The notes under the pieces are model-generated. The model did not search any database and had not been told where the DNA came from. It was given only the letters and a program-made list of their open reading frames with translations. A stretch of 64,000 bases of DNA, taken from assembly GCA_913774665.1 (NCBI GenBank), contig CAJYHN010000004.1, positions 186,001-250,000 on the forward strand. The letters run 5' to 3'. Shown here piece after piece: positions 3,140 to 43,117 of the stretch. This DNA is from an uncultured Microbacterium sp. (GTDB taxonomy: Bacteria; Actinomycetota; Actinomycetes; Actinomycetales; Microbacteriaceae). The first letter of the stretch is position 1. Every line of letters starts with the position of its first letter. The translations under genes were made by a program, and so were the position numbers.

Positions 3140-3198
3140 AAACGCGCCGGCGAGTGAAACAGCACCTGCTCTGCCGTGCCTCACTCACAGGGGCGTTT
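3140..3198. repeat. Family D nested palindrome, copy 1 (left of the DUF559 gene)
   Basis: Outer arms AAACGCGCC / GGGGCGTTT enclose inner arms GGCGAGTGA / TCACTC, with a CAC/GTG core. Copy 2 at 4221-4287 shares the same blocks in the same order (AAACG, GGCGAGTGA, TGCT, TGCCG, CTC, GCGTTT). The two copies bracket the DUF559-like gene between them. The rest of the 2962-3267 gap holds the rplK promoter and a TCCACAG motif at 3211-3217. Confidence 0.8.
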
Positions 3199-3267
3199 TT
3201 CACGGCGTCGTCCACAGATGCGCCCGCCCGCGATTCCCCGGGGGGCACAGGATGCCACTCTCGGGCG

Positions 3268-4098
3268 ATGACGCTCACCTCACCGCCCACAGCCGCAGGG
3301 CCACCGGCCTCCCTTCTGCGAGCTGCCGACGCGGCCTCCGCGGGCACCTACCCCGCCGCGGACCGCGCGCTCCTGCGTATCCGCCCCGCGGTCTACACCG
3401 TTCGCTCGGAGTGGGACGCGCTGCCGGAGTGGGACCGTTATCTCCTGCGCGTCCACGCATACGCGCTCGTTCGGCCCGATGTGATCTTCGCGCACGAATC
3501 GGCAGCGGCCCTGCTCGGCCTGCCGCTCTTCGGTCACCCCCGGGATGTGCACGTCTTCGATCCTCGCCGCGCGCGCTCTCTGCGCTTCGGCGACGTAGCG
3601 GTCCACACCAGCGCCGATCCACGAACACCCCTGCACCTCGGCCGGATCCGCACGACCTCGGTCACCGATACGGTCCTCGACCTCGTCCGATGCCTCCCGC
3701 CGGCATTCGGCCTCGCCGTCGCCGACCATGCCGCCCGAGCCGCGGGGACCACGAGCGTCCAGTTGCTCGGGCGAGCGACCGAGCAGCGAACGGAGCGGGG
3801 TCGGCGGCGAGTCGAATGGGTCTGCGCCCATATGGATGCGCGCGCGGAATCCGTCGCGGAGTCGATCAGTCGCGCCGTCGCACTGTGGTGCGGGTTCCCC
3901 GTTCCCGTTCTGCAGCGGGAGCATCGCGTCGGCGGACGGTCGTACCGCTCTGATCTTTGCTGGCCCGAGCACCGAGTGATCGGCGAGTGCGATGGATGGC
4001 AGAAGTACGGCGCGGGTGGCGACGCGACACGTGCCTTTCGCGAGGAGAAACGTCGCGAGGACACCCTGCGGCGCGCCGGCTGGAAAGTCGCGCGATGA
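3268..4098 (+). CDS. DUF559/Vsr-like PD-(D/E)xK nuclease protein, locus 1 (probably nonsense-truncated)
   Basis: A 276-residue protein with an AbiEi-like N-terminal region (FAHESAAALLGLPLFG near residues 75-90) and a C-terminal Vsr/DUF559-type nuclease fold. Candidate catalytic residues are Asp229 in RSDLCW and Glu240/Asp242 in GECDG. It reads plus-strand between nusG and rplK, both minus-strand, and is bracketed by family D palindromes. The stop TGA at 4096 falls where related proteins have the Trp of an RW-aromatic motif. The frame stays open beyond it for 47 more codons, so the intact gene probably ended at 4242 (see separate entry). The sequence supports a nuclease fold; activity and target are unknown. 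Confidence 0.75.
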   Translation: MTLTSPPTAAGPPASLLRAADAASAGTYPAADRALLRIRPAVYTVRSEWDALPEWDRYLLRVHAYALVRPDVIFAHESAAALLGLPLFGHPRDVHVFDPRRARSLRFGDVAVHTSADPRTPLHLGRIRTTSVTDTVLDLVRCLPPAFGLAVADHAARAAGTTSVQLLGRATEQRTERGRRRVEWVCAHMDARAESVAESISRAVALWCGFPVPVLQREHRVGGRSYRSDLCWPEHRVIGECDGWQKYGAGGDATRAFREEKRREDTLRRAGWKVAR

Positions 4099-4242
4099 GA
4101 CTATGCCGGCGCCCTCCAGATGCACGGCTTGCGCGATGCGCTCACGGCCGCCGGGCTCCCCCTCGTCCACCCAGCCGACACGGCGCGCCTGGTCACGCTG
4201 CGGCAGCGGCGGCCCTCTTTCGATAAACGGAGCGGCGAGTGA
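4096..4242 (+). pseudogene. Detached C-terminal tail of the locus 1 DUF559 gene after an in-frame TGA
   Basis: Directly after the TGA the same frame continues DYAGALQMHGLRDALTAAGL and stays open to a TGA at 4240-4242. This resembles the usual C-terminal tail of the family (aromatic-Asp-Tyr motif, then a helix ending in AAGLP). A single TGG-to-TGA change explains the break. The second stop lies inside the GGCGAGTGA block of palindrome copy 2, so the ancestral frame ran into the repeat. Confidence 0.6.
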
Positions 4243-4287
4243 GACACCACGTGCTGCGGCATGTCTCGCTCGCACGAGCGTTTATCG
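4221..4287. repeat. Family D nested palindrome, copy 2 (right of the DUF559 gene)
   Basis: Perfect outer arms CGATAAACG / CGTTTATCG enclose inner arms CGAGTGAGACA / TGTCTCGCTCG with a CACG/CATG core. It shares block order with copy 1 at 3140-3198. It lies between the DUF559 frame and the nusG terminator. Either strand could form a long hairpin. Confidence 0.82.
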
Positions 4288-4315
4288 AGGAGGGGCACGC
4301 GGCGCGGGGAAGCGA

Positions 4316-4352
4316 CGAACGCCCCGCCGGCCGGAGCCGTGCGGGGCGTTCG
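4316..4352 (-). terminator. Hairpin after nusG
   Basis: Perfect 12-bp stem CGAACGCCCCGC / GCGGGGCGTTCG, 18 bp past the nusG stop codon, with no real U-tract. This form is common for actinobacterial terminators. It would separate secE-nusG transcription from rplK-rplA. Confidence 0.55.
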
Positions 4353-4370
4353 CGAGAGACGCGGGTGGCG

Positions 4371-5495
4371 TCAGATCATCTTGGTGACCTGGTCGAACGA
4401 CAGCTCGACCGGGGTCTCGCGCTCGAAGAGCGACACCAGCACCGTGAGCTTGCCGCTCTCGGGCTTGATCTCGCTGATCGTGCCGGGCAGGCCCGCGAAC
4501 GAGCCTTCCTTGATCGTGATGGTCTCGCCGGTCTCGAAGTCGACCTCGGCGGGGATGACGCGGGCCGTGGTGGCCGAGCCCTTGGCCGCTGCGCCCTTGG
4601 CAGGAGCGGACTCCTTGACCTCGACGAGGCTCTTGAGCATGTTGAAGGCCTCTTCGAAACGCAGCGGTGTCGGGTTGTGGGCGTTGCCCACGAAGCCGGT
4701 GACGCCGGGGGTGTGACGAACGACCGACCAGGTGTCTTCGTTGAGGTCCATGCGCACCAGCACGTAGCCGGGGATGCGCACGCGGTTGACCATCTTGCGC
4801 TGGCCGTTCTTGATCTCGACGACGTCCTCCATGGGGACCTCGACCTGGTAGATGTCGTCCTCGACCTCGAGCGTCGACTTGCGCTGCTCGATGTTGGCCT
4901 TCACCTTGCGCTCGAAGCCGGCGTAGGAGTGGATGACGAACCACTTGCCGGGAAGCGAGCGCAGCTCGGCGCGGAACGCCTCGTACGGGTCGGCGTCTTC
5001 GTCGGTCTCGTCGGCGTCGACATCGGTCGCGGCGTCGGCCGGCGACTCGGAAGCCTCGACCTCGTCGACGACGGATGCCGCGGCGGAGACCTCGTCGACG
5101 AAGTCCTCGTCGAGCACGGGAGCGTCGGGCTCGCCGTTGACGTCCGGGCCGTCGTAGGCGGTGACCTCGTCGGCGGCCTCTGCGGCCTCTTCGGCCTGCT
5201 CCTCGGCGAGGGCGTCGGTGAGGACCTCGGCGGCGGCCTCGGCCTCGCTGGTCTCGTCGATCTCGAGAGCGTCGTTCACGATCGCGTCCGCCTCCGGGTC
5301 GGTGATGTCGATGTCGCCGAGGTCGGCGTCGTCGGTGTCGGTTTCGTCGTCGACGATGTGGACGGCCGTGTGCTCGGCCGAGTCGGAGGCGCGCTCCTGG
5401 GACTCGAGCACGTTGCCCTCCTGGGCTTCGTCGTCCTCGCTGGACTGCTCAGCGGCCGTCGCCCAGTCGGCGTCGTCGACATATCTTTCAGACAC
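4371..5495 (-). CDS. nusG: Transcription termination/antitermination protein NusG with long acidic N-terminus
   Basis: The NusG core starts near residue 180 ([20 protein letters not shown]), followed by the RNA-polymerase-binding NGN domain and a C-terminal KOW domain ([20 protein letters not shown]). NusG binds RNA polymerase, modulates pausing and links to Rho or ribosomes. At 374 residues it is about twice the E. coli length. The extra first 175 residues are almost all Asp, Glu, Ala, Ser and Thr, with no visible domain. Acidic extensions occur in actinobacterial NusG, but this one is long. It follows secE by about 60 bp in the conserved order. Confidence 0.96.
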
Positions 5496-5555
5496 TGTGA
5501 TCTCTTCCGTTCAGTGGCGGCCGCTCCTGGCGCCGCGCGTCCGCCCAGACGCCGG

Positions 5556-5831
5556 TCAGGCGCCGGCGGTACCGGGGACGCCGAAGACGGCGGTGGTGAT
5601 CCACACGAACAACACGTCGAGGCCGTAGACGATCGCCATCATGACGACGACGAACCCGAGGACGACGGCGGTGAACTTGATCAGCTCCTGCCGCGTCGGC
5701 GTGACGACCTTGCGCAGTTCCGCGAAGACCTGACGAATGAAGAGGGCGATCCGCGCGAAGAAGTTGAGCTTCTTCTCGCGGGGCGCGCCGCGCTCAGCGA
5801 CGATCTCGCCCTTCGCCTCGTCCTGCGTCAT
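5556..5831 (-). CDS. secE: Preprotein translocase subunit SecE
   Basis: A 91-residue protein with one C-terminal membrane span (residues 52-75, FTAVVLGFVVVMMAIVYGLD) preceded by the SecE amphipathic motif ELRKVVTPTRQELIKF. SecE clamps SecY in the plasma-membrane protein channel. The ATG at 5831 is chosen because the upstream part of the open frame runs towards the tRNA gene. The position between tRNA-Trp and nusG is the textbook order. Confidence 0.96.
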   Translation of the reverse strand: MTQDEAKGEIVAERGAPREKKLNFFARIALFIRQVFAELRKVVTPTRQELIKFTAVVLGFVVVMMAIVYGLDVLFVWITTAVFGVPGTAGA

Positions 5832-5873
5832 CGAACCACCTAGGTCTGTGTCTGTGCCAGCGTGCGCTGTGCG

Positions 5874-5946
<73 letters not shown>

Positions 5947-6134
5947 AAGATCCCGAGGGATCCAGGATTCGAAACCGACCCTCTTTCCGCCTGGAATCTC
6001 TCGGAGAGGGATGCCACGTGCCCGGGGGCACGGCGAAAGAATGCAGATTTCGACTGCACTCCCCAGTCTATGTCATGTCCTCCGGGCTGGCGAACCGAGG
6101 CCGCTCGTAGGACACCGCGCGCAAGGGAGATCGA

Positions 6135-6168
6135 CGTCTCCCGACACCGAGAAGCGGGTCGGGAGACG
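6135..6168 (-). terminator. Hairpin after the aldehyde dehydrogenase gene
   Basis: Perfect 11-bp stem CGTCTCCCGAC / GTCGGGAGACG with a 12-base loop, 8 bp past the stop codon of the minus-strand dehydrogenase gene. No strong U-tract follows. Confidence 0.55.
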
Positions 6169-6176
6169 CCGGAGAA

Positions 6177-7538
6177 TCACGCCGTGCGGATGAGCTTCTT
6201 GTTGACGAACTCGTCGGCCGCCAGCAGTCCCATCTCGCGCGAGGTGCCGCTGCGCTTGACCCCGCCGAACGGCAGCTCGGGCGAGTCGGCGAGGACCACG
6301 TTGACGTAGACCATGCCGGCCTCGATGCGATCCGCGATGCGCTGAGCCTGCTCGGCATCCGTCGTGAAGACGTACGAGCCGAGGCCGTAGCCGGTGTCGT
6401 TCGCGAGATCGACCGCCTCGTCCTCGCTCGAGACGCGGTAGACGGTACCGACGGGCCCGAAGAACTCCTCGCCGTACGCGTCCATCTCGCTCGTGACGCC
6501 CGTGAGGACGGTACCAGGGAAGAAGGCGCCGTCGCGGGTTCCGCCGACCTCCACGGTCGCCCCCTGGGCCACCGCGCGCTGCACCTGCTCGTCGAGGCGC
6601 TCAGCCGCCGCAAGAGACGACAGCGGGCCGAGCACGGTGTCGTCGGCGAAGGGGTCGCCGACCTTGGCCTCACCCAAGGCTGCCGTGAACTTCTCGAGGA
6701 AGGCGTCGTAGAGCTCGTCGATCACGATGAAGCGCTTGGCGCCGTTGCACGACTGCCCGTTGTTGTCGAGGCGCGCGTCGACGGCCGCCTGCACAGCGGC
6801 ATCCAGATCATCCGTCGACAGGAGGATGAAGGGGTCGGACCCGCCGAGCTCGAGCGCGACCTTCTTGAGGTTGCGGCCGGCGATCTCGGCGACAGCGGCG
6901 CCCGCGCGCTCCGAACCGGTGACCGAGACGCCCTGCACGCGGCGGTCGGCGATGATGGTCGCCGCCTGGTCGTTGGTGGCGCGGATGTTCACGTAGGCGC
7001 CCTCGGGGAGCCCGGCGTCGCGGTAGATCGCCTGGAGCGCTTCGGCCGACTCGGGGCACTGCGGCGCGTGCTTGAGGAGGATGGTGTTGCCGACCGCGAG
7101 GTTCGGGGCGGCGAAACGGGCGACCTGGTAGTAGGGGAAGTTCCACGGCATGATGCCGAGCAGCACGCCCAGCGGCGAACGGCGGATGACCGCGGTGCCC
7201 TCGCCCAGGATCTCGAGCGGGCTGTCACCGGTGATCTTGTCGATGTTGTCGGCGTAGTACTCGGTGATGTCGGCGGCGAAATCGACCTCGCCGAGGGCGG
7301 CCTCGAGCGGTTTGCCCATCTCGCGCACGATGATCGCGGCGAGATCGTCACGCCGATCGCGGTGCAGCTGAGCGACGCGGCGCAGGGCCTCGGCGCGCTC
7401 GGCCGGGGCGGTGCGCGACCAGACGCGGTATCCGTCGTGGGCGGAGGCGATGGCCTCTTCGACCCCGGAATCGCTCAGCGTGTCGTACTCGGCGAGGGTC
7501 TCACCGGTGGCGGGATTGACGACGGCGTAGTCGCTCAT
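6177..7538 (-). CDS. gabD: NAD(P)-dependent succinate-semialdehyde / aminobutyraldehyde dehydrogenase
   Basis: A 453-residue aldehyde dehydrogenase of the succinate-semialdehyde type. Visible landmarks are PWNFPYYQVARFAAPNLA in the cofactor-binding domain, ALELGGSDPF with the general-base Glu, and NNGQSCNGAKR with the catalytic Cys. It would oxidise the semialdehyde left by the GABA transaminase and might also handle 4-aminobutyraldehyde from the amine oxidase; only one such dehydrogenase is in the cluster. The ATG at 7538 has an AAAGGAG ribosome binding site. It is the last gene of the minus-strand operon. The symbol is by similarity. Confidence 0.85.
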   Translation of the reverse strand: MSDYAVVNPATGETLAEYDTLSDSGVEEAIASAHDGYRVWSRTAPAERAEALRRVAQLHRDRRDDLAAIIVREMGKPLEAALGEVDFAADITEYYADNIDKITGDSPLEILGEGTAVIRRSPLGVLLGIMPWNFPYYQVARFAAPNLAVGNTILLKHAPQCPESAEALQAIYRDAGLPEGAYVNIRATNDQAATIIADRRVQGVSVTGSERAGAAVAEIAGRNLKKVALELGGSDPFILLSTDDLDAAVQAAVDARLDNNGQSCNGAKRFIVIDELYDAFLEKFTAALGEAKVGDPFADDTVLGPLSSLAAAERLDEQVQRAVAQGATVEVGGTRDGAFFPGTVLTGVTSEMDAYGEEFFGPVGTVYRVSSEDEAVDLANDTGYGLGSYVFTTDAEQAQRIADRIEAGMVYVNVVLADSPELPFGGVKRSGTSREMGLLAADEFVNKKLIRTA

Positions 7539-7560
7539 GGTGCTCCTTTTCGTTTCGTTG

Positions 7561-9123
7561 TCAGGACGTGATGCGGCGGCGGCGGGCGCTGGCGGGCGCT
7601 TCCCGACCCAGGGTCTCACCCCGGAAGAAGCCGGGGCTGGCGATGCGCTGCGCGATCATGAGGACGAGGCCCGCGACGATGATGACCACTGTGATGACGA
7701 ACACGAGGCCCACACCGCCGATCTCCGAGCCCGAGCCGTAGTCGGGGCTCGCACTGTCGATGAGAGTCGTGACGAACAGCACCGCGAGGATCACGCCGCC
7801 CACGAGGGGAGCGAGCAGCGTCAGGAGGACGTTGCGCACCGAGTCGAACCATTGCTTGCGGAAGTACCAGACGCACGCGAACGCGGTGAGCCCGTAGTAG
7901 AAGCAGATCATCGCGCCGAGGGCCGTGATCGTGTCGGTCAGCACGTTCTCGCTCAGCACGCGCATGACCGCGTAGAACACCGAGGCGACGACCGCGGAGA
8001 CGATGGTGGCGTAGCCGGGAGTGAAGAAGCGCGGGCTGACCTTGGCGAACTTCTTGGGCAGGGCGTCGTAGTGCGCCATGGCGAGAAGCGTGCGCGCCGG
8101 GCCCACGAAGGTCGCCTGCAGCGAGGATGCCGAGCTGGTGAGCACCGCCAGCGAGACGAGGAACGCGAGCGGCCCGAGAATCGGCCCCGACAGGTGGAAG
8201 AACACGTTCTCCTGGATGTCCTCGTTGCCGAGTCCCAACTCCCCCGTGCCGTTGCCGGCGAACATCAGCAGCGCGACGGCGATGAGCAGGTACAGCGCCA
8301 CGATGAGGAACACCGTCGCGGTGGCGGCCCGACCGGGCGTCTTGTCGGGGTCCTTCGTCTCTTCGTTCATGGTGAGGATGACGTCCCATCCCCAGAAGAT
8401 GAAGATCGAGAGCGAGAGCCCGGCCGCGAACGCGCTGAACGAGTCGACCTCGAAGGGGTTGAACCACGACAGCTGAACCGGGCTCGCATCGAAGGCATTG
8501 CCGTTCAGCATCTCGACGACCGCGGCGCCGGCGAAGACGAGCAGCACGAGGATCTGGAAACCGACGAGACCGTACTGCAGGCGCTGCGTGGTCTGCAGGT
8601 CGCGATACGACACGATCGTCGCCAGCAGCATGAACAGCAGGCACACCGCGATGTTGATCGGGACGACGCGGGTGAGCTCGGCGATCTCGGGGGTGCCCGT
8701 GACCTGTGCGATCAGCAGGAACAGGAAGTCGACGGCGATGCCGGCCAGGTTGGACAGCACGATGACCGTGGCGGCGATCAGGCCCCACCCGGCCATCCAC
8801 CCGACCCAGGGGCCGAAGGCGCGAGCCGCCCAGGTGAAGGAGGTGCCGGCATCCGGCATCCGCGAATTCAGTTCTCGATACCCGAGAGCCACCAGCAGCA
8901 TCGGGATGAACCCGACGAGGATGATCGCCGGCACCTGGAAGCCGACCGCCGAGACGGTCGGTCCGAGCGCTCCGGTGAGCGTGTAGGCGGGGGCGATGGT
9001 CGAGATGCCGATGACGACGGCGCCGATCATGCCGATCGAGCCGACGCGGAGTCCCTTGTTGGAGATGCCGGTGGTGACGGCACTATCGGGTCCGGCGCTC
9101 GCGTCGTTGCGAGGGGTGGTCAT
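7561..9123 (-). CDS. APC-family amino acid / polyamine permease
   Basis: A 520-residue membrane protein with about 12 to 14 hydrophobic segments and APC landmarks near the N-terminus (GLRVGSIGMIGAVVIGISTI, later YRELNSRMPDAGTSFTW). The segment ending TPGRAATATVFLI matches the superfamily's loop after helix 6. Lying among amine oxidase, GABA transaminase and semialdehyde dehydrogenase genes, it most likely imports putrescine, GABA or a related amine. It overlaps the universal stress gene upstream by 4 bases (ATGA). Confidence 0.85.
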   Translation of the reverse strand: MTTPRNDASAGPDSAVTTGISNKGLRVGSIGMIGAVVIGISTIAPAYTLTGALGPTVSAVGFQVPAIILVGFIPMLLVALGYRELNSRMPDAGTSFTWAARAFGPWVGWMAGWGLIAATVIVLSNLAGIAVDFLFLLIAQVTGTPEIAELTRVVPINIAVCLLFMLLATIVSYRDLQTTQRLQYGLVGFQILVLLVFAGAAVVEMLNGNAFDASPVQLSWFNPFEVDSFSAFAAGLSLSIFIFWGWDVILTMNEETKDPDKTPGRAATATVFLIVALYLLIAVALLMFAGNGTGELGLGNEDIQENVFFHLSGPILGPLAFLVSLAVLTSSASSLQATFVGPARTLLAMAHYDALPKKFAKVSPRFFTPGYATIVSAVVASVFYAVMRVLSENVLTDTITALGAMICFYYGLTAFACVWYFRKQWFDSVRNVLLTLLAPLVGGVILAVLFVTTLIDSASPDYGSGSEIGGVGLVFVITVVIIVAGLVLMIAQRIASPGFFRGETLGREAPASARRRRITS

Positions 9124-11449: not shown

Positions 11450-11493
11450 GAAAGCGTCCTTACTTTTCGTGCGTCTTGCGAAGTCGGGCTGGC

Positions 11494-11534: not shown

Positions 11535-11541
11535 ACGACTG

Positions 11542-12983: not shown

Positions 12984-14513
12984 ATGGTCGACACCACCGT
13001 CGCGCCGCCGAGTCTGCGCGCCCTCCTCGCTCGGCGGGACCTTCGACTGCGCCTCGTCGTCGGCGAGGACGACCTTCCGGTCGGAAGCATCGACCGTCCC
13101 GTGCGGTGGGTGCACTCCAGCGACCTCGTCGACCCCACGCCGTTCCTCAGCGAGGGGCTCGTCCTGCTGACGACCGGGACGCAGTTCGCCGATACGGACG
13201 ACTACACCGCGTACGTGTCGCGGCTGCTCGCCCGGGGAGTTCGGGCCCTGGGGTTCGGCACCGAGGTCGTGCGCGACGGCATCCCGGCGGGGCTCACCGC
13301 CGCATGCCTCGCGGGCGGGATGCCGCTGTTCGAGGTGCCCTACCGCACCCCCTTCATCGCGGTGGCCCGCGCCGGCGCCGAGGCCATCGCCGCCGAGTCG
13401 TACGCGCGGCGCAGCTGGTCGCTCGCGGCGCAACGCGCGGTCTCGCTCGCGGCGCTGCGCCCCGACGGCCTCTCGGCGACCCTCGCCGAACTGTCGCGGC
13501 AGCTGGACTGCTGGGTCGGCCTCTTCGACGCGGCCGGCACGCTGAGCACCGAGCACCCCGCGGGCGGTCTCAGCGCAGTCGCCCTGGACGTCGTCGCGGC
13601 AGAGGTCACGACGATGCTCCGCCGCGGTACGCGCGCAGCCTCCACCGTGCGACCGAGCGACACCTCGGTCAGCCTCCAGACCCTGGGCCGCGGCGGACAC
13701 CTCCGCGGCGCGCTCGCGCTCGCGGCCGACGACCTCGACCACGAGGCGCGCAGCGTCGTGACCGCCGTGGTCGCGATGGCAGCCCTCGCCCTCGAGCAGC
13801 AGGACGGACTCGCACGGGCGATCGGCACCTTCCGCGCGGGACTCGTGCAGTCGCTCGCGACCGACGACCCCGCCCTGGCCCGGCGCGCCGGCCGCGACCT
13901 GTTCGGCCCGCTGCCCGCCGCCCCCGTCGTCGTGGCCCTGACGCCCGCGGCATCCACTCGCTCCACGGCCCTCGCGGAGTGGCTCGAGCTGCGCGCGCAG
14001 GAGAGCCGCGGCGAGCTGTTCTTCGGCCGGGGCGACGACGGGCTCGTCATCGTGGTGCCCGCCGCCGCGCGCGACACACTGACCGAGGTCGCCGACCGGT
14101 TCGAGATGGTCGTGGGATGCTCGGCGCCCAGCGGGTACGACGCCTTCTCGAGCGCCCTGACCCAGGCTCGGACCGCGCGCGACCGGCTGGCCACGCCCGG
14201 GGTCGCCGACTTCGCCGACACCGCGCGCGCGGGTCTTCTCGCCGCCCTCGGCTCCGAGGCCGCGCGCACCGTCGCCGCCGGCGCGTTGGTTCCGCTGCGC
14301 ACCTACGACGAGGCGCAGGGCTCCGCGCTGCTCGAGACGCTGGACGCCTGGCTCGCCCACGACTGCTCGCACGAGGCGACGGCGCAGGCCCTCGGCATCC
14401 ACCGCCACACCGTGCGCGCCCGCATCGCCCAGGCCGAGCGCGTGCTCGATCGCGACCTGTCGTCGTTCGCCGCGCGTGCCGAGCTGTGGGCGGCGCTGCG
14501 GCTGGCCGAGTAG
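12984..14513 (+). CDS. PucR-family transcriptional regulator of the amine/GABA cluster
   Basis: A 509-residue protein. The N-terminal PucR ligand domain (RLVVGEDDLPVGSIDRPVRW onward), a central region, and a C-terminal helix-turn-helix of the PucR type (HEATAQALGIHRHTVRARIA) are visible. Members near gabT genes usually respond to GABA or amino acids and control the divergent catabolic operon; that role is inferred here from the head-to-head arrangement with gabT. The ATG has an AGGAG ribosome binding site 6 bases upstream. Confidence 0.85.
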   Translation: MVDTTVAPPSLRALLARRDLRLRLVVGEDDLPVGSIDRPVRWVHSSDLVDPTPFLSEGLVLLTTGTQFADTDDYTAYVSRLLARGVRALGFGTEVVRDGIPAGLTAACLAGGMPLFEVPYRTPFIAVARAGAEAIAAESYARRSWSLAAQRAVSLAALRPDGLSATLAELSRQLDCWVGLFDAAGTLSTEHPAGGLSAVALDVVAAEVTTMLRRGTRAASTVRPSDTSVSLQTLGRGGHLRGALALAADDLDHEARSVVTAVVAMAALALEQQDGLARAIGTFRAGLVQSLATDDPALARRAGRDLFGPLPAAPVVVALTPAASTRSTALAEWLELRAQESRGELFFGRGDDGLVIVVPAAARDTLTEVADRFEMVVGCSAPSGYDAFSSALTQARTARDRLATPGVADFADTARAGLLAALGSEAARTVAAGALVPLRTYDEAQGSALLETLDAWLAHDCSHEATAQALGIHRHTVRARIAQAERVLDRDLSSFAARAELWAALRLAE

Positions 14514-14576: not shown

Positions 14577-14790
14577 GGGCACAACAGCGGGAGACCTCGC
14601 CGACACGCCGCCCCTCGGCATCCACCACCGGCGTGTCCCCTCCCGGGCCCGCCGTTGTGCACAACCTGGGGCGGTCACCCACCGCCCCGCCTCGCCCCGC
14701 GCCGAGCACAACAGCGGGAGATCTCGCCGACACGCCGCCCCTCGGCATCCACCACCGGCGTGTCCCCTCCCGGGCCCGCCGTTCTGCACA
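14577..14790. repeat. Family A palindromic repeats, two-copy orphan island
   Basis: Two near-identical 88-base units (14577-14664 and 14703-14790) lie in the convergent gap between the PucR and RpiR genes. Each has outer arms GCACAACAGCGGG / CCCGCCGTTGTGC and inner arms CGACACGCC / GGCGTGTC. The second copy's end differs by one base (GTTCTGC). A shared GC-rich lead (GGGGCGGTCACCCACCGCC) precedes each unit. No gene is seen in 14514-14844; no DUF559 gene is adjacent. Confidence 0.85.
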
Positions 14791-20547: not shown

Positions 20548-20600
20548 CCGGAGCGCGTCGACGAGGGAACGCGCGGTCCTGAGGCGGCGACGGAGATTTT

Positions 20601-21000
20601 GAGCACAACCGCGGAACGAACGCCGACACGCCGGACGCCGGCAGCCCACCCACGGCGCGCCACCGAAAAACCCCGCCGCTGTGCACCGGGAGCCACCGGT
20701 GAACACAACCGCGGAACGAATGCCGACACGCCGCACACCGACAGCCCACCCACGGCGCGCCACCGAAAACCCCCGCCGCTGTGCACCGGGAGCCACCGGC
20801 GAGCACAACCGCGGAACGAATGCCGACACGCCGCACACCGACAGCCCACCCACGGCGCGCCACCGAAAAACCCCGCCGTTGCGCACCGGGAGCCACCGGC
20901 GAGCACAACCGCGGAGCAAATGCCGACACACCGCACACCGACAACCAACCCACGGCGCGCCACCGAAAAACCCCGCCACTGTGCACCGGGAGTCGCGGGT
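20601..21000. repeat. Family A array: four tandem 100-bp units upstream of DUF559 locus 2
   Basis: Units begin at 20601, 20701, 20801 and 20901, an exact 100-bp period. Each runs from GAGCACAACCGCGG through CCGACACGCC and CACGGCGCGCCACCG to CCCCGCCGCTGTGCACCGGG, so the ends are inverted (GCACA.CCGCGG against CCGC..TGTGC). Units differ at only a few positions. The array ends 87 bp before the DUF559 start. No gene is seen in it. Confidence 0.88.
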
Positions 21001-21086: not shown

Positions 21087-21914
21087 GTGTGCGCACCGGG
21101 TAAGGGAGTCGAAACGCTGAGGGGCCTGCGGGCGAAGGGCCTGTCGCGCCGCGCCATCGCCGCGGCCGTCGAGTCAGGAGACCTCCTGCACCTGCGACGG
21201 GGGATTTACGCCGATCGCGACACGTGTTCGCCCGTCGTCACCGCAGCCCGCCATGGCGGCCGGCTGGGCTGTGTGAGCGCTGCACGCCATCTCGGCTTGT
21301 GGACCCTCGCCGAAGACCACCCCACCCACGTGTGGATGGGTGGAGCCGGGCACGCCTACGCCCACGAGGGGTGCGCGTGCATCGCGCACTGGGACGACGG
21401 ACCGGTCGAGCAGGGTTTCGCGCTGCCCTCGATCCCGCGCGTGCTTCGTCAGGTGCTGCGGTGCCAAGGGGTGGAATCCTTCTTCACCGCGCTGGAGTCC
21501 GCCCTCCGGCGCGACGAGTTATCGGCGTCGGGACGGGACTGGCTGCGGGACCACACGAACGACGCCGCTCGCGAAGCGCTCGCCTTCGCCCGGTTCGACG
21601 CCGATAGCGGGCTGGAATCGCTCGTCCGATGGCGACTTCGCACGTGGAATCTTCCGGTACGCACGCAGGTACGCGTCATCTCGGTCGGTCGGGTCGACCT
21701 TCTGATCGGAGACGCCCTGATCGTCGAGATCGACGGCGCCGGCAACCATGACGGACCGGCGCACAGGCACCGCGACCTGCGACGGGACGCACACGCTGCC
21801 ATCTGGGGATTCGTCTCGCTGCGGTTCGACTACGCGCTCGTCGTCCACGACTGGCCGACCGTCGAGCACGCCATCCTGGCGTACGTCGATCGCGGTCTGC
21901 ATCTGCGGCGGTGA
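21087..21914 (+). CDS. DUF559/Vsr-like PD-(D/E)xK nuclease protein, locus 2
   Basis: A 275-residue protein. Residues 5-75 form an AbiEi-type winged-helix start (LRAKGLSRRAIAAAVESGDL, then LRRGIYA). The C-terminus is a Vsr/DUF559 nuclease fold with Asp204 in GRVDLLIGD and Glu214/Asp216 in VEIDGAGNH. The GTG at 21087 is the nearest plausible start; the frame is open further up but there it encodes repeat sequence. Two TCCACAG motifs lie at 21013 and 21030. It is bracketed on both sides by family A palindromes. Nuclease chemistry is inferred from the residues; the substrate is unknown. Confidence 0.78.
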   Translation: MCAPGKGVETLRGLRAKGLSRRAIAAAVESGDLLHLRRGIYADRDTCSPVVTAARHGGRLGCVSAARHLGLWTLAEDHPTHVWMGGAGHAYAHEGCACIAHWDDGPVEQGFALPSIPRVLRQVLRCQGVESFFTALESALRRDELSASGRDWLRDHTNDAAREALAFARFDADSGLESLVRWRLRTWNLPVRTQVRVISVGRVDLLIGDALIVEIDGAGNHDGPAHRHRDLRRDAHAAIWGFVSLRFDYALVVHDWPTVEHAILAYVDRGLHLRR

Positions 21915-21934: not shown

Positions 21935-22378
21935 GAGCAAAACGGCGGGAGATTTTGCGACACGCCCCGCACCGGCGTCCAATCGCGGCGTGTCGACGAT
22001 GACTCCCGCAGTTGTGCACGGGCGCGCTCGTCCCGGGCCTCGGCGAGATCGCGGGCGCAGGAGATTCTGCCGCCCCGGCCCGAGCACAACGGCGGCGCCC
22101 TGTGCCGACACGCCGCGCCGCGGCATCCCACCACGGCGTTTCACGCCAACACCCGCCGTTGTGCACGCACGCCCCGGGCCCGAGCACAACGGCGGCCCCC
22201 TGTGCCGACACGCCGCGCCGCGGCATCCGGTCGTGGTGTTTCACACCAACACACCCCGCCGTTGCGCACTCACGCCCCGGCCCGAGCACAACGGCGGCCC
22301 CCTGTGCCGACACGCCGCGCCGCGGCATCCCACCACGGCGTTTCACGCCAACACCCCGCCGTTGTGCACGCCCGCCCC
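21935..22378. repeat. Family A array downstream of DUF559 locus 2 (four units)
   Basis: A diverged unit at 21935-22019 (GAGCAAAACGGCGGGAGATT, CGACACGCC, GGCGTGTCG, CCCGCAGTTGTGCACG) is followed by three close copies starting 22082, 22182 and 22284, about 100 bp apart. Copies have outer arms GAGCACAACGGCGG / CCCGCCGTTGTGCAC and inner CGACACGCC / GGCGTTTCACGCC. The array ends 30 bp before the stop of the RamB-like gene. The same core occurs upstream at 20601-21000 and in the island at 14577. Confidence 0.86.
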
Positions 22379-25364: not shown

Positions 25365-25442
25365 CCTCGTCCCACTTATGGCGGACCTCGTCCCACTTAT
25401 GGCCACCTGAGCCACCCTCAACCAGCCACATGTGGGACGAGG
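25365..25442. repeat. Family C palindromic element, copy 1 (aceA-aceB gap)
   Basis: Two direct 18-mers CCTCGTCCCACTTATGGC start at 25365 and 25386 (21 bp apart), and one inverted copy GCCACATGTGGGACGAGG lies at 25425-25442 after a 21-base spacer. The same two-direct-one-inverted layout recurs at 25553-25630. It starts 31 bp past the aceA stop codon. Confidence 0.85.
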
Positions 25443-25499
25443 CCGCAAGCGGCCCCTCCCGCCGCAAGCGGCCCCTCCCGCCGCAAGCGGCCCCTCGCC
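25443..25499 (+). repeat. 19-bp tandem repeat between the two family C elements
   Basis: The unit CCGCAAGCGGCCCCTCCCG occurs at 25443, 25462 and 25481 (the last copy ends differently). Each unit contains a small palindrome CCGCAAGCGG. It sits exactly between the two family C palindromes. Confidence 0.85.
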
Positions 25500-25552
25500 G
25501 CCGCACCTCCCTTTCCGCCGCGCACACCGCCCCTCATCTCGCTCATCACGGA

Positions 25553-25630
25553 CCTCGTCCCACTCATGGCGGACCTCGTCCCACATATGGCCGGTCAAGC
25601 GACCCCCGACCAGCCATAAGTGGGACAAGG
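25553..25630. repeat. Family C palindromic element, copy 2 (aceA-aceB gap)
   Basis: Direct arms CCTCGTCCCACTCATGGC (25553) and CCTCGTCCCACATATGGC (25574) are again 21 bp apart, followed by inverted arm GCCATAAGTGGGACAAGG (25613-25630). Arm spacing is the same as in copy 1 while the arms differ at a few bases, so the geometry is conserved. No gene is seen in the gap. Confidence 0.85.
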
Positions 25631-25755
25631 TGTGAGGGGAGAGGGGCACAGCGCGACACAGACAGAAAGCCACGATCATGACCCTCCTCACCTCTCCCCC
25701 GCCCACCGCCTCGACCCCGCCCACCCCGACCCGCACGGACACCGAAGGATCCCGG

Positions 25756-35207: not shown

Positions 35208-35241
35208 CCGTCGAGCCTAGGTGTTCTGACGCGGTGTCCCG

Positions 35242-36033: not shown

Positions 36034-36067
36034 CCCTCCGAGCCTAAGCCTCCGCCGTCATGAGACA

Positions 36068-36103
36068 CCGTGTTCTGCCGTGTGAATTCTCGTGATACCG
36101 TGT
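36068..36103. promoter_or_regulatory. Three helically phased CCGTGT direct repeats, candidate DeoR operator
   Basis: CCGTGT occurs at 36068, 36078 and 36098, i.e. at 0, 10 and 30 bp, so all copies face the same side of the helix. Context is ACCGTGTTC, GCCGTGTGA, ACCGTGTGC. They fill the gap between the regulator and the aldolase start, overlapping the likely promoter. Multiple direct repeats are typical of DeoR operators. Confidence 0.6.
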
Positions 36104-36109
36104 GCAACA

Positions 36110-36760: not shown

Positions 36761-36816
36761 CACACCCACGGCGGACCACGACGTCCGCCTCTCACCCGAA
36801 CACGAAGGAGTGGACC

Positions 36817-38109: not shown

Positions 38110-38163
38110 TTCCGCGCGGGGAGGACGGCCTCTCGTCCTCCCCGCCCTCCGGGAGGAGCCCCC

Positions 38164-38742
38164 ATGACCGCACGACTGTTCTTCGTGATCGGCCCGGCCG
38201 GTAGCGGCAAGTCGACCGTGAGCACCCTCATCGCTCGCCGGATCGGTGCCGCGTACCTCGACAAGGACTCCGTCGCGACGGCGTTCACCGAGGCCCTGCT
38301 CGAGGCCGCCGGCAGCGACAAGAACGACCGCGACAACAACGCCTACTACCAGGACGTGGTGATGGGCTTGGAGTACGCCACCCTGCTGAAGCTGGCGGGC
38401 GACAACCTCCGCCTCGGCACCGATGTCGTGCTCGACGCCCCGTTCGTCCGCTACTTCCCCGAGGCGGACTACCTCGAGCGCGCCGCCGTGGAGCACGACT
38501 GGCCGGACGACCTCACCATCACCGTCGTGCACGTCACCGTGGACGGCGATCTCGTCCGCGAGCGCGTCGACTCGCGCGGCTACGGTCGCGACGCATGGAA
38601 ACTCGCCCACTGGGACGAGTTCTGGGCCACGGCGCAGGCCGCCGACTGCCGGTGGCGCGGCGCGCACCACGTGCTCTTCGACAACAGCGCCTCCGGCGCC
38701 GATCCCACCGCGCTCGAGACCGCCCTGGCCGCCTTCGTCTGA
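38164..38742 (+). CDS. P-loop kinase of the sugar-acid operon
   Basis: A 192-residue P-loop protein with Walker A FVIGPAGSGKST at residues 7-18 and a lid-like segment RVDSRGYGRDAWKL. Size and motif resemble shikimate/gluconate-type small kinases and generic AAA-family annotations. In this operon a kinase is needed to make the phosphorylated substrate of the aldolase, so it may phosphorylate the imported acid or its 2-keto-3-deoxy product; inferred from context. Confidence 0.75.
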   Translation: MTARLFFVIGPAGSGKSTVSTLIARRIGAAYLDKDSVATAFTEALLEAAGSDKNDRDNNAYYQDVVMGLEYATLLKLAGDNLRLGTDVVLDAPFVRYFPEADYLERAAVEHDWPDDLTITVVHVTVDGDLVRERVDSRGYGRDAWKLAHWDEFWATAQAADCRWRGAHHVLFDNSASGADPTALETALAAFV

Positions 38743-38764
38743 GCAGACTCCCGCGGCACCGCGA

Positions 38765-40060
38765 TCAGGGACGCGCCGGATCGATCGGTGTGAAGCGCCG
38801 CAGACCCGCGCCCGAGCTGAGCCGCGAGGCGGCGAGCGAGCCCGCCACCGCGAGGAAGATCGGCAGCAGCAGGGTGAAGCCGGTGTCGGTGAACTCGATG
38901 ATCAACGCGATCGCGGTGAAGGGCGCCCGCATGTTGGATGCCAGGAACGCCGCCGCCGCGACGATCGCGAGCGCCCTGCCGTCGGTGCCCGGCCAGATCA
39001 GCGCCCACCCGGCCGCGGCGGCCGCGCCCAGTGCCGCACCGATCGCGACCGAGGGCTGGAGGGTGCCGCCGATCGCGCCGGAGCCGAGCGAGATCGTCGT
39101 GGCCACGTACTTGAGCAGGGCGAGCAGCAGGAGCAGGAGCGCGGGCTGCGAGAGGTCGAAGCCCGCGGTGGCCAGAGCACGGCCGTTGCCGAGGATGAGC
39201 GGGAAGAACGCCCCCAGAAGGCCCACCGCCGCAAAGGTGAGGGGCAGGACGACGAGGAGCTTCCAGCCCTTCGGACGGAACCGCCCGAGCGCCTTCGTCA
39301 CGGTCGCGAAGCTCGTCGCCCCCCAGCCCATGAGCGGGCCGATGAGGATCGCCGCGACGACGAGCGAAGCGTTCACCTCGAGGGCGGGCACCTGGTAGAG
39401 GGACCCGTCACCGACGAGGGGACGCGCCACGAACGTGGCGATCGCGCTGACCGAGAGGGCGACGACGGCGGCGCCGACGCTGAACTGCGCGAGCAGGATC
39501 TCGATCGCGAACAGCGCCCCGGCGAGCGGGACGTTGTACACGGCCGCGAGACCGGCGCCGGCGGCCGAGGCGATGAGGATGCGTCGCCACCGCGGATCGA
39601 GGCCGAACCACCCCACGATCTTCGATCCCGCCATCGCCGACAGCTCGCGCGGCGCGACCTCTTTCCCGATCGAGGCGCCGAGGGCCACCGAGGTCACCTG
39701 GATGACGGTGTCGGCGAGCGTCTCCCACCACGGCATCCGGGCCCCGTCGACCCCCTGCTCGACCGTGGCGAGCGTGCGCCCGAAACGCCGCAGCAGATAC
39801 CAGCCGAGCGCCGCGAGCACGCCCGCCCCGCCGACCGTCACGATCGGCAGCCACCACGGCGACGGCAGCGCAAGCCCGTCGAGGAACGGCCCCTCCTCGT
39901 GCCCCCAGACCAGGTGCTCGATCGAGTGCACGATCCACACCAGCAGCAGCACGGCGAGTCCGGTCGCGAGCCCGACGATCAGGGTGGCGAGTCCGAGCTT
40001 CGACAGCGCGAGGACGGCACGGCGATGCGGGCGCGTCGGCGCCGAGGGCTCTGCTGTCAC
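38765..40060 (-). CDS. ClC-family chloride channel / antiporter
   Basis: A 431-residue membrane protein with about ten hydrophobic segments. The ClC selectivity regions are recognisable: GASIGKEVAPREL (equivalent of GREGP, gating Glu retained) and GSGAIGGTLQPSVAIGA (equivalent of GGIFAP). No cytoplasmic CBS domains are present. It ends 22 bp from the kinase stop in a convergent arrangement. Confidence 0.9.
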   Translation of the reverse strand: MTAEPSAPTRPHRRAVLALSKLGLATLIVGLATGLAVLLLVWIVHSIEHLVWGHEEGPFLDGLALPSPWWLPIVTVGGAGVLAALGWYLLRRFGRTLATVEQGVDGARMPWWETLADTVIQVTSVALGASIGKEVAPRELSAMAGSKIVGWFGLDPRWRRILIASAAGAGLAAVYNVPLAGALFAIEILLAQFSVGAAVVALSVSAIATFVARPLVGDGSLYQVPALEVNASLVVAAILIGPLMGWGATSFATVTKALGRFRPKGWKLLVVLPLTFAAVGLLGAFFPLILGNGRALATAGFDLSQPALLLLLLALLKYVATTISLGSGAIGGTLQPSVAIGAALGAAAAAGWALIWPGTDGRALAIVAAAAFLASNMRAPFTAIALIIEFTDTGFTLLLPIFLAVAGSLAASRLSSGAGLRRFTPIDPARP

Positions 40061-40150
40061 CCCGCAACGTTAACGGACCCGCGTTACCGTCCCGTGACGC
40101 CGTCCGCCCGGCGTCTCGACCGCTCGCGCGGCCAGCGCTACGGTGACCGC

Positions 40151-40468
40151 ATGGCCTCTCCCCCCGTCTCCCTGCGGCGCCCCGCCGACGTCCTCGGCAT
40201 CGTCGCGGTGATCCTCGCCGCCGGCCTGCTGATCCCGACGCTCTTCGTCTACGTCGTGGGCCTCATCCCCGAGATGAACGCGATCTGGTGGGTGGGCATC
40301 ATCCTGCTGCCGTTGCTCTTCGCCGACGGGGTCCTCGTGATCGTGCTCTCCGTGATCGGCCTGATCGTCGCGGTACGCCGCGCCGGCCGACGCGCATGGT
40401 CGATCGTGGCGCTGTTGCTCGGCATCCTGATGCTCGTCCCGGCCCTGCTGATCCTCATACCTTCCTGA
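40151..40468 (+). CDS. Small membrane protein with three hydrophobic segments
   Basis: A 105-residue protein, family not recognised. Three membrane spans are visible: near residues 15-38, 46-72 and 83-103, with positive charges (RRAGRRA) between the last two, so the loop there is cytoplasmic. No motif suggests function. It is divergent from the ClC gene (90-bp gap) and precedes the aminotransferase by 57 bp. Confidence 0.65.
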   Translation: MASPPVSLRRPADVLGIVAVILAAGLLIPTLFVYVVGLIPEMNAIWWVGIILLPLLFADGVLVIVLSVIGLIVAVRRAGRRAWSIVALLLGILMLVPALLILIPS

Positions 40469-40525
40469 GGCTCTTCGGCGTCATGCCCCTCGGCAGGAAA
40501 GCGCGGAAACACTAGGCTCGGAACC

Positions 40526-41725
40526 GTGACTTCCCGCGCCCCGCTCTCCCGCAAGCTCTCCGCCATCGCCGAGTCCGCGACCCTCAAGGTCGATGCCAAG
40601 GCCAAGGCCCTCCAGGCCGCCGGCCGACCGGTCATCTCGTATGCCGCGGGCGAGCCGGATTTCGCGACGCCCTCGTTCATCGTGGATGCCGCCGCCGAGG
40701 CGCTGCAGGACCCCAAGAACTACCGCTACACCCCCGCCGCCGGCCTCCCGGTGCTGCGCGAGGCGATCGCGGCGAAGACGCTGCGCGACTCGGGCCTCGA
40801 GGTCGCGCCCTCGCAGGTCATCGTGACCAACGGCGGCAAGCAGTCGGTGTACCAGGCGTTCCAGACCGTCGTGAACCCCGGCGACGAGGTGCTGCTGCCC
40901 GCGCCGTACTGGACGACGTACCCCGAGGCCATCGCACTGGCCGACGGTGCCCCTGTCGAGGTCTTCGCCGGTGCCGACCAGGACTACAAGGTCACCGTCG
41001 CCCAGCTCGAGGCCGCGCGCACCGACAAGACGACCGTGCTGGTGTTCGTGTCGCCGTCGAACCCGACCGGCTCGGTCTACACCCCCGAAGAGACCGCCGA
41101 GATCGGACGCTGGGCGCTCGAGCACGGCATCTGGGTCATCACCGACGAGATCTACCAGAACCTCACCTACGAGGGCGTCAAGGCGGTCTCGATCGTCGAG
41201 GCCGTGCCCGAGCTCGCGGGCCAGACCATCCTCGTCAACGGCGTCGCGAAGACCTACGCCATGACCGGATGGCGCGTGGGCTGGATGGTGGGACCGGCGG
41301 ATGCCATGAAGCTCGCCGGCAACCTGCAGTCGCACCTGACGAGCAACGTCAACAACATCGCGCAGCTCGCCGCCGCCGCGGCGCTCAATGGCCCCCAGGA
41401 CGAGGCCGAGCAGTTTCGCCTCGCCTTCGACCGTCGCCGGAAGCTGATCGTGTCGGAGCTGTCGAGAATCGACGGCGTCCAGGTGCCCAACCCCCTCGGT
41501 GCGTTCTACGTGTACCCCGACGTGCAGGGCCTGCTGAACCGCTCGTGGGACGGGGTGACGCCGACGACCTCGCTGGAGCTCGCCGACCTCATCCTCGAGA
41601 AGGCCGAGGTGGCCGTGGTCCCCGGCGAGGCCTTCGGCCCCAGCGGCTACCTGCGCCTGTCGTACGCTCTCGGCGACGACCAGCTCCTCGAGGGCATCCA
41701 GCGCCTTCAGCGCCTGTTCTCCTGA
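40526..41725 (+). CDS. Class I pyridoxal-phosphate aminotransferase (aspartate type)
   Basis: A 399-residue fold-type I aminotransferase. Family residues are clear: [12 protein letters not shown], the [11 protein letters not shown] segment, [12 protein letters not shown] with the PLP-contacting Asn, PLP Lys in [16 protein letters not shown] and substrate Arg in GYLRLSYAL. It most likely interconverts aspartate and oxaloacetate with glutamate/2-oxoglutarate. GTG start at 40526. A family B palindrome follows 25 bp after the stop. Confidence 0.9.
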
Positions 41726-41750
41726 CCCCCTCCCCCACAGGCGCGCGCGC

Positions 41751-41809
41751 GTGAGGGGTCACGAACTGTCGCCTCGCACGCGCGCAAGCGACACGAACTG
41801 ACCCCTCAC
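41751..41809. repeat. Family B palindrome upstream of DUF559 locus 3
   Basis: Outer arms GTGAGGGGTCA / TGACCCCTCAC and inner arms TGTCGC / GCGACA. Between the arm blocks both sides carry CGAAC in direct orientation, giving a symmetric internal loop. The loop is CCTCGCACGCGCGCAA. The DUF559 gene starts 67 bp downstream. Related copies: the array at 42845 and an orphan at 46909. Confidence 0.85.
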
Positions 41810-41876
41810 CCGCCCGCCCGGGCGAGGGCTGTGGACAACGTCAGCGGGCCCGCGGCCCAGGCGAACAAGATGGCGG

Positions 41877-42773
41877 ATGCCGATTCCTCGCTGCAGCGCC
41901 TCGCTCGCCCCCTCCGCCGCCTTCACCGTTGCCGAAGGGCGGCGCGCCGGACTCTCGACGACCACGTTGCGTTCGGCCGCATGGCGGACGCCCTTCCGCG
42001 GTACGCGGGTCACCGCCGAGCACGACGACCACGCACGGCTGGCGGCGCTGCTGCGCGCCTGCCGCGATTCCGCGTTTCTCTGCAACACGACAGCAGCGGT
42101 CATCCACGGATTCCCCCTCCCCCTGCGCCTCGCCGAGAGCGCACGACGGATGCCGGTGATCGGTGTCCCGAATGATCAGGTGCGAGTCCGCCGTTCGGGC
42201 GTCATCGGCCGACGGCTGATCGTCGAAGCGGACGACATCGTGGAGGTCGATGGCATCCGGTGCACGTCCCGTCTGCGCACCTGGGCGGAACTGTCGGAGA
42301 TCCTGTCGGTCGCGCAGCTGACGGCGGTGACGGACTTCCTCATCGCCCGTCGACTGCCGCTCGCGACGCGCGACCAGCTCGAGGCGACGCATCGACGATT
42401 CCTCGGCGGTCGCGGCTCGAAGGCGCGACGTCTCGCGATCGATCTCGCGAACGACGGTTCCGAGTCGCCCCGTGAATCAGAGCTGCGAGTGCTCCTGGTC
42501 ACGGCGGGTCTTCCCGAGCCGGAGTGCAACGTCGAGATCTACGACGGGACGCGTTTCATCGCACGGGTCGACCTGCTGTTTCGGGACGAGCGAACCATCC
42601 TCGAGTACGACGGAGACCATCATCGCGATCCGCGGCAGTGGAGCCGGGATCAGCGACGACGCGCCGAGCTCGAATCGCTGGGGTACCGGTACACGAGCGT
42701 GACCGCCCGTGATTTCGACGACCCGTCGGCGCTGCTCGCTCGGATCCGTCGCCTCCTCGCTCAGGGGCGGTGA
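41877..42773 (+). CDS. DUF559/Vsr-like PD-(D/E)xK nuclease protein, locus 3
   Basis: A 298-residue protein with a middle domain (LLRACRDSAFLCNTTAAVIH, like AbiEi-associated proteins) and a C-terminal Vsr/DUF559 nuclease fold: Asp232 in ARVDLLFRD, Glu243/Asp245 in LEYDGDHHRD, then a Tyr/Arg-rich last strand. A TCCACAG motif (reverse strand) lies at 41829-41835. A second ATG at 41870 is out of frame. The gene is bracketed by family B palindromes, upstream at 41751 and downstream from 42845, and a 16-bp tandem repeat starts at its stop codon. Catalysis is inferred from residues. Confidence 0.78.
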   Translation: MPIPRCSASLAPSAAFTVAEGRRAGLSTTTLRSAAWRTPFRGTRVTAEHDDHARLAALLRACRDSAFLCNTTAAVIHGFPLPLRLAESARRMPVIGVPNDQVRVRRSGVIGRRLIVEADDIVEVDGIRCTSRLRTWAELSEILSVAQLTAVTDFLIARRLPLATRDQLEATHRRFLGGRGSKARRLAIDLANDGSESPRESELRVLLVTAGLPEPECNVEIYDGTRFIARVDLLFRDERTILEYDGDHHRDPRQWSRDQRRRAELESLGYRYTSVTARDFDDPSALLARIRRLLAQGR

Positions 42774-42774
42774 A

Positions 42775-42838
42775 GGCGCACCCGCGCGACGGCGCGCCCA
42801 CGCGCAGGCGCACCCGCGCGAAGGCGCACCCGCGCGAC
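42775..42838 (+). repeat. 16-bp tandem repeat at the end of DUF559 locus 3
   Basis: Copies of GGCGCACCCGCGCGAC or close variants start at 42775, 42791, 42807 and 42823, with a partial fifth at 42839. The run begins 2 bp after the stop codon and leads straight into the family B array. Confidence 0.8.
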
Positions 42839-42844
42839 GGCGCA

Positions 42845-43117
42845 CGAGGGGTCGAGAACTGTCGCCTCGCACGCGCGCAAGCGACACGAAACGACCCCTC
42901 ACGCCACCGGCCCCGCGAGCGGTCAAAAACTGTCGCCTCACAGCCGCCCAAGCGACACAAACCGACCCCTCACGCCACCAGCCCCGCGAGCGGTCAAGAA
43001 CTGTCGCCTCGCGGCCGCGCAAGCGACACAAAACGACCCCTCACGCCACCAGCCCCGCGAGCGGTCAAGAACTGTCGCCTCACAGCCGCCCAAGCGACAC
43101 AAAACGACCCCTCACGC
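42845..43117. repeat. Family B array: four units of 71-bp period downstream of DUF559 locus 3
   Basis: The block GTCGCCTC occurs at 42861, 42932, 43003 and 43074, exactly 71 bp apart. Each unit pairs a left arm (GGTC..GAACTGTCGCC or variant) with a right arm (AAGCGACAC.AA.CGACCCCTC). Left and right arms share TGTCGC / GCGACA and GGTC / GACC, with A-rich unpaired segments on both sides. It ends 11 bp before the murB stop. No gene is seen. Confidence 0.87.

Follow-up and report, generated by a model that had tools for sequence, protein, structure and literature searches.

A 64-kb stretch of one contig (hereafter the window) of the 3.58-Mb genome of an uncultured Microbacterium sp., which is assembled in 14 contigs, carries three genes, D, A and B, of an AbiEi-DUF559-type family. 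Each gene lies between copies of a long palindrome, and each palindrome family differs from those at the other two loci. The genes and the palindrome copies of the window are as follows.

3133..3205, family D palindrome, upstream copy, AAACG..GGCGAGTGA / TCACTCAC..CGTTT (from the flank alignment)
3268..4098, + strand, gene D, AbiEi/Vsr-like, probably decayed (weak PF18741 matches only)
4220..4288, family D palindrome, downstream copy (from the flank alignment; family D has one copy per side)
14577..14790, two solitary family A palindromes with no gene between them
20594..20995 (start about 20594), family A upstream array of four palindromes, GAGCACAACnGCGG..CCGACACGCCG
21087..21914, + strand, gene A, putative AbiEi-like module and DUF559/Vsr-like nuclease domain
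21935..22369, family A downstream array of four palindromes
25365..25631, family E palindromes (GTCCCACTTATGG..), with the cognate gene on another contig (C13:226516)
41753..41807, family B palindrome (GAGGGGTC-N6-TGTCGC, inverted), upstream copy ending 69 bp before gene B
41877..42773, + strand, gene B, residues 1-180 with a predicted AbiEi fold and about 198-298 with a predicted Vsr/EDxHD-like nuclease domain
42846..43113, family B downstream tandem array of four palindromes with a period of 71 bp
46909..46974, solitary family B palindrome

The flanks of a gene were compared by a flank score, defined as the best local similarity between the 500 bp before the gene and the 500 bp after it. Genes D, A and B score 23.5, 55.5 and 50.5, respectively, whereas the median over 313 shifted gene-sized positions of the window is 13.0 and their highest score is 21.5. 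Only one of the 37 other genes of the window reaches at least 20 (21.5). The original prediction that three genes are each bracketed on both sides by their own palindrome family is thus borne out. The families match across their genes as it described, but they are not confined to them, because family A also occurs at 14577-14790 and family B at 46909-46974. The three predicted families D, A and B are joined by a fourth, E, the gene of which lies outside the window.

The whole genome has eight genes of this type, six of which (L011, L014, L016, L008, L010 and L013; L and G numbers denote loci and genomes) have two-sided matches of at least 23.5. The two-sided match of L007 is weak (17.0), and L009 has a clear copy upstream only, its score of 18.0 stemming from low-complexity sequence. 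Two further Vsr-like matches, L015 and L012, lie outside the family; L015 scores 13.5 and L012 gave no score. The association extends to relatives in named genomes of Microbacterium, Cryobacterium, Arthrobacter, Agromyces, Rathayibacter and other genera. The best 80 of 411 B-type relatives were taken via a B-type alignment and 77 were scored, three being short of flank. A score of at least 20 is reached by 58 of the 77 loci, compared with 10 of 1169 pseudo-gene positions at the same loci (p 5e-41) and with 9 of 770 mismatched pairs, in which the upstream flank of one locus is set against the downstream flank of another. For the second subtype, A, a single locus was taken from each of 30 of the best-matching genomes; 16 of these 30 loci score at least 18 versus 18 of 300 controls, and 11 score at least 20 versus 7 of 300. 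The predicted generality beyond this genome is supported, with flank-to-flank similarity rather than palindrome density as the measure. A gene of the A type is found at E 1e-20 or better in 56 of the 59 searched genomes of the window's genus.

The palindromes are bipartite. Flank matches of at least 18 are present in 98 of 120 loci, some of which are the same locus taken twice, and the resolved arms mostly follow one plan: two boxes, the outer one of 7-9 bp and the inner one of 5-8 bp, are separated by a variable spacer of 4-6 bp, and beyond the loop the order is mirrored. The spans are mostly about 45-64 bp within a search range of 40-65 bp. In family B, the loop is 15 nt long in 26 and 16 nt long in 4 of 30 distinct complete copies, from a search that permitted 13-19 nt, and the pairing rate between the two spacers is 0.46 per position versus 0.43 expected from composition. 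The stem of a hairpin favours paired spacers and tolerates changes in the loop, whereas a protein dimer on duplex DNA shows the opposite preference. Because the loops are fixed at 15-16 nt and the spacers are unpaired, the data suggest that the family B palindrome is a duplex dimer site, not a hairpin as it had first been called. Seven full B copies, from ten places tried, have identical boxes in a search that itself required near-exact boxes, and the identity is 0.38 in their spacers and 0.49 in their loops. The list of arms holds no GTAG tag common to the palindrome families; GTAG is present inside the arms of L073, L076 and L093. According to the available part of PMC7319586, AbiEi binds two 23-bp inverted repeats placed 3 bp apart, and the pairs of its homologue lie 13 bp apart. 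The bipartite geometry of the palindromes agrees with these pairs.

The palindromes are dispersed through the genome. Pattern searches that allow at most one mismatch per half-site, with the reversed pattern as control, give 45 half-sites of family B (control 1), 31 of family E (control 1) and 74 of family A, 30 of them exact (control 9). The 30 best half-sites of each of these families, 90 in total, were grouped as 39 places, and a crude codon-usage gene call puts 33 of them between genes (12 of 14 for B, 9 of 10 for E and 12 of 15 for A); the same kind of crude call gives a coding share of about 86% for the window. The palindromes sit between genes of every relative orientation. By comparison of positions, only those of the 39 places that flank genes A, B and E hold a family gene. 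No gene was found between B palindromes in the stretches of G009, G053, G063, G072, G055 and G197 that were searched, and the stretches with a known gene (G166 and G197) were detected.

The AlphaFold2 model of protein B is of high confidence, with a predicted local distance difference test (pLDDT) score of 94.2 and a predicted template modelling score of 0.90. In a Foldseek search with this model, I-Bth0305I (3r3p; template modelling (TM) score 0.79 by target, root mean square deviation (rmsd) 2.7) follows after two top ranks discussed below, and Vsr (1vsr and 1cw0) appears further down the list. A profile search backs the nuclease assignment (3hrl, 2e-5; 3r3p, 0.01). Residues 1-180 modelled alone (pLDDT 93.5) have AbiEi of S. 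agalactiae (6y8q, E 2.3e-4) and its homologue 1zel (E 9.5e-4) as best PDB matches, with TM scores of 0.40-0.59, and one AbiEi profile matches 33 of 51 relatives. E200, D232, H249 and D258 are invariant in all 51 sequences and, by our own assignment from the alignment, would be the EDxHD residues. On these models, the protein combines an AbiEi-type module with a Vsr/EDxHD-like nuclease domain in a single fusion. The Pfam families MTES_1575 and DUF559, the latter labelled by Pfam as a protein of unknown function, are each matched by 41 of the 51 aligned proteins; MTES_1575 is described as a Vsr-type domain in a HEPN fusion, and the available part of that paper does not mention repeats (PMC3710099). 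No HuH match, as expected of a HuH-Y1 transposase, is listed in the Pfam, Foldseek and profile searches. The neighbours of gene B are an aminotransferase gene and murB by Pfam, and no AbiEii nucleotidyltransferase toxin was detected by Pfam among the immediate neighbours at this locus. Relatives of protein B are few in phages (1 of 50,697 records) and plasmids (6 of 72,556).

The predicted co-variation of the repeat with the protein is supported. The inner box TGTCGC is conserved among orthologues of protein B at 63-100% identity, the outer box of which is either GAGGGGTC or GAGTCGCCA; at 53-54% identity, the inner box is ACACGCCG-like in some relatives. In a scan of the alignment, columns 102 and 113 score highest for the outer-box type. 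The eight GAGGGGTC proteins have V or T at 102 and R at 113, and the ten GAGTCGCCA proteins, one of which (L228) has a weak flank match (15.5), have N at 102 and A or S at 113. There is no exception in these 18 rows, so the outer box and the two residues change together; in a tree built without residues 96-117, the outer box switches three times. Over 61 clean loci, the similarity of the arms correlates weakly but significantly with that of the proteins (rho 0.22, Mantel p 0.001), and domain-wise partial correlations do not single out the domain that reads the arms. Arms are shared (score of at least 12) by 70% of pairs at a protein identity of at least 65%, 22% at 50-65%, 4% at 40-50% and 0.00 below. 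A similar contrast for the inner box, TGTCGC versus ACACGCCG, coincides with several columns of the alignment; with only three ACACGCCG sequences behind it, it is not claimed.

The number of repeats in a genome is related to the presence of the gene. Half-sites were counted by hand from lists for 198 genomes of the genus. Seven of them carry a B gene at 63% identity or more, and all seven have at least five half-sites of one type, compared with 10 of the other 191 (Fisher 9e-9, phylogeny not corrected). Where the gene flanks are of the GAGTCGCCA type (G027, G197, G058 and G055), there are 60, 62, 23 and 17 half-sites of GAGTCGCCA and 0, 19, 19 and 24 of GAGGGGTC. Where they are of the GAGGGGTC type (G000, G166 and G016), the counts are 3, 5 and 4 for GAGTCGCCA and 37, 43 and 21 for GAGGGGTC. 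The genome-wide counts thus largely follow the box type of the gene. On repeats that occur without a matching gene, which the original prediction had named as evidence against itself, the outcome is mixed: 10 of the 191 genomes without a close B gene have at least five half-sites, and 3 of these 10 have a relic of the gene (G024 and G006) or a lone palindrome (G009) at the gene B site, the other seven having neither.

The site between the aminotransferase gene and murB, which was inspected in 28 genomes, occurs in several states. Six genomes have palindrome, gene and palindrome as in the window. In G009 the site is 77 bp long and contains a single palindrome but no gene, a gene relic and a palindrome are present in G024 and G006, and G083 has a 63-bp gap with neither gene nor palindrome. 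Palindromes of other families occupy the site in G063, G007, G053 and G149. Ten more genomes have no B gene or palindrome in the sequence viewed, which for three of them comprised the ends only, and in G001, G010, G011 and G017 the right side of the site did not align. Another palindrome family (CCGTCCTGCGGA..CCGACACGCCG), the inner box of which resembles that of family A, lies at the B site in L309, L311 and L315.

Gene B is syntenic in L017-L020 and is therefore inherited in place while the flanking repeats change type. Where the window has the lone B palindrome at 46909, L017 has a diverged copy of it, L019 lacks it, and L018 and L020 carry a different palindrome instead. Against L017, gene B has a nonsynonymous divergence (dN) of 0.095 and a synonymous divergence (dS) of 0.52, and six neighbouring genes have dN of 0.008-0.017 and dS of 0.13-0.27; its dN/dS is 0.18, 0.20 and 0.27 against L017, L018 and L020, respectively. 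Judged from these rates, gene B is fast-evolving yet under purifying selection. Its synonymous divergence from L017, about two to four times that of the neighbours, suggests allele exchange or weak codon selection. Elsewhere, L288 (G006:C10, around 395100-396660) has an A-type gene beside the equivalent of window position 14480, where the window has the two solitary A palindromes. This arrangement could be due to gene movement or to deletion between repeats.

The closest likeness is to the REPtron, the unit formed by a gene for a repetitive extragenic palindromic (REP)-associated tyrosine transposase (RAYT) and its repeats. As far as the available text of the two papers goes, a REPtron has its gene flanked by one repeat family, generally with one gene per family, and its palindromes are dispersed largely between genes and in clusters, with gene presence tracking repeat number (PMC2817692, PMC6006769); rayt genes evolve rapidly (PMC2817692). 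In the same way, the genes described here are flanked by their own dispersed palindrome families, mostly intergenic and clustered, gene presence tracks repeat number, and the gene evolves fast. Unlike in the REPtron, no HuH-tyrosine transposase is found, the enzyme being the putative fusion of an AbiEi module with a Vsr/EDxHD-like domain, and the palindromes are longer, bipartite and devoid of a shared GTAG tag. The AbiEi antitoxin of type IV toxin-antitoxin systems shares the fold of residues 1-180 and, in the available part of its description, inverted repeats of about 23 bp that form closely spaced pairs, but it differs in that the present protein has a fused nuclease domain, no toxin partner beside gene B and sites dispersed over the genome. 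I-Bth0305I and Vsr share the nuclease fold and the invariant E, D, H and D, with modest E-values and a motif assignment of our own. I-Bth0305I forms a dimer on its target, which is nearly 60 bp long according to the available part of a review (PMC3943268), comparable to the long putative dimer site here. Unlike I-Bth0305I and Vsr, the present protein is encoded by a free-standing chromosomal gene with an AbiEi module, outside any intron or intein, and its putative target is repeated dozens of times.

The original prediction proposed a repeat-partner relation between the nuclease-like gene and its palindrome family, and the flank association, the co-variation and the genome-wide repeat number all support it. 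We favour, with some reserve, a repeat-nuclease partnership that acts like a REPtron with parts unrelated to RAYT. Specific recognition of the palindrome by the protein is very probable. On nuclease-driven spread of the palindrome, the balance tips only slightly towards it. We infer physical binding, cleavage and a causal role of the nuclease in spreading from the sequences. In this partnership, the AbiEi-type module would read the bipartite half-site of outer box, spacer and inner box, and two monomers would occupy the two arms of the double-stranded palindrome of roughly 45-64 bp. The fused EDxHD/Vsr-like nuclease domain would act at or near the palindrome, and repair or copying would seed new palindromes at intergenic sites and keep the gene-flanking copies in step with the current specificity of the protein. 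Gene B would stay in a fixed place, evolve fast and sometimes be lost, leaving lone or orphan palindromes behind. Autoregulation through the upstream palindrome, as in AbiEi, is a likely additional role.

Several points weigh against this partnership. Nineteen of the 77 B-type loci score below 20. The two top Foldseek ranks are poorly superposed mitoribosomal chains of T. gondii (rmsd near 17), and every Foldseek E-value for the nuclease domain exceeds 0.001. The outer box switches independently only two to three times on the tree, with just two pairs on branches that are well supported, and a paired sign test (p 0.5) has no power. L092, a distant exception, combines a GAGTCGCCA box with R102/E113. 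The overall rank correlation between arms and proteins is just 0.22, without any one domain being distinguished. In G055, GAGTCGCCA flanks the gene and yet GAGGGGTC is commoner (24 versus 17), the two are nearly even in G058 (23 versus 19), and ten genomes carry repeats without a close B gene. Mobility is deduced from differences between species. Because each genome has dozens of self sites at which free, plain double-strand cutting would be lethal, the nuclease would have to act under restraint, and nicking or distant, conditional or structure-dependent cutting has to be assumed.

An unlikely alternative is an operator network, in which the protein is an AbiEi-like autoregulator that acts through the palindromes, processes unrelated to it have dispersed these regulatory sites, and the nuclease domain is otherwise employed. 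AbiEi binds inverted repeats in its own promoter, as the available part of PMC7319586 describes, the B palindrome lies 69-124 bp before the start of gene B, and the boxes of the seven full B copies are identical while spacers and loops diverge, although that search demanded near-exact boxes. However, the copies are not limited to the upstream side: they also follow the gene, form tandem arrays and sit between genes in all relative orientations. An operator network explains neither the lone palindromes, nor the different families at one site across species, nor the nuclease residues invariant in 51 of 51 sequences. We give rather little credence to a homing-type gene drive, in which the palindrome would be the homing site and a cut empty palindrome would be repaired by copying in palindrome, gene and palindrome. 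The nuclease domain is close to I-Bth0305I, and the raised dS of gene B would fit allele replacement. The lone palindrome of G009, where six genomes and the window have the full arrangement, is compatible with homing without proving it and may equally reflect deletion between flanking repeats. Against homing, gene B keeps the same syntenic position across L017-L020, and each genome has dozens of free palindromes with no gene in them. A defence system, in which the palindromes would be bait or self-marks and the nuclease would attack invading DNA, seems improbable. PADLOC does report matches to AbiEi, a methyl-directed restriction enzyme and other defence profiles, but the AbiEi matches mark the DNA-binding module, the Pfam-tested neighbours are aminotransferase and MurB for B and L11 and NusG for D, no AbiEii toxin lies beside B, and relatives of protein B are rare in phages and plasmids. 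RAYT-like single-strand processing of hairpins by the nuclease, which the palindromic shape and the REPtron-like layout might suggest, is hardly credible given the near-random spacer pairing, loops of 15 or 16 nt in 30 of 30 copies and the action of Vsr on duplex DNA.

A broader statement is an even bet: a second, independently evolved REP-like class may exist, in which AbiEi-EDxHD nucleases of many parallel lineages in Microbacterium, Cryobacterium, Arthrobacter and relatives, up to eight genes per chromosome, would each have their own bipartite duplex palindrome of about 45-64 bp, read it by a short recognition code (residues 102/113 for the outer box in the B clade), and spread and homogenise it. 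The system shares no homologous part with the REPtron, its closest likeness; by behaviour alone, it could be classed with REPtrons. Searches of the open-access literature, with subscription papers mostly outside the scope, found no link between DUF559/Vsr-like genes and palindromes, and the novelty of the partnership is provisional. REP and RAYT are the classic example of a repeat that has its own enzyme, and a non-homologous counterpart would show that this arrangement evolves repeatedly. It would also account for many intergenic palindromes in Microbacterium and its relatives, and suggest a function for the AbiEi-DUF559/MTES_1575 fusions that most of the searched genomes of the genus carry. 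Furthermore, it would offer naturally diversified proteins with very long DNA targets, the specificity of which can be read from comparative data, and the presence of several families per cell makes repeat spread directly testable.

Two further sites of the window concern families D and E. The frame of gene D is stopped by a TGA at 4096-4098 and, by eye, the same frame is open onward to about 4240; the gene has likely decayed while its palindromes persist. It lies on the opposite strand between the genes for L11 (rplK) and NusG (window 2530-5495; neighbours by Pfam). rplK and nusG are normally adjacent in one operon, and gene D looks like an insertion. The family E palindromes at 25365-25631 adjoin a malate synthase gene, where relatives have other palindromes or none. 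At this malate synthase site, L277 (G008:C1:1789108-1789468) has a long inverted repeat, CGTTTCGTCTCCTCGC..GCGAGACGAAACG, in several copies.

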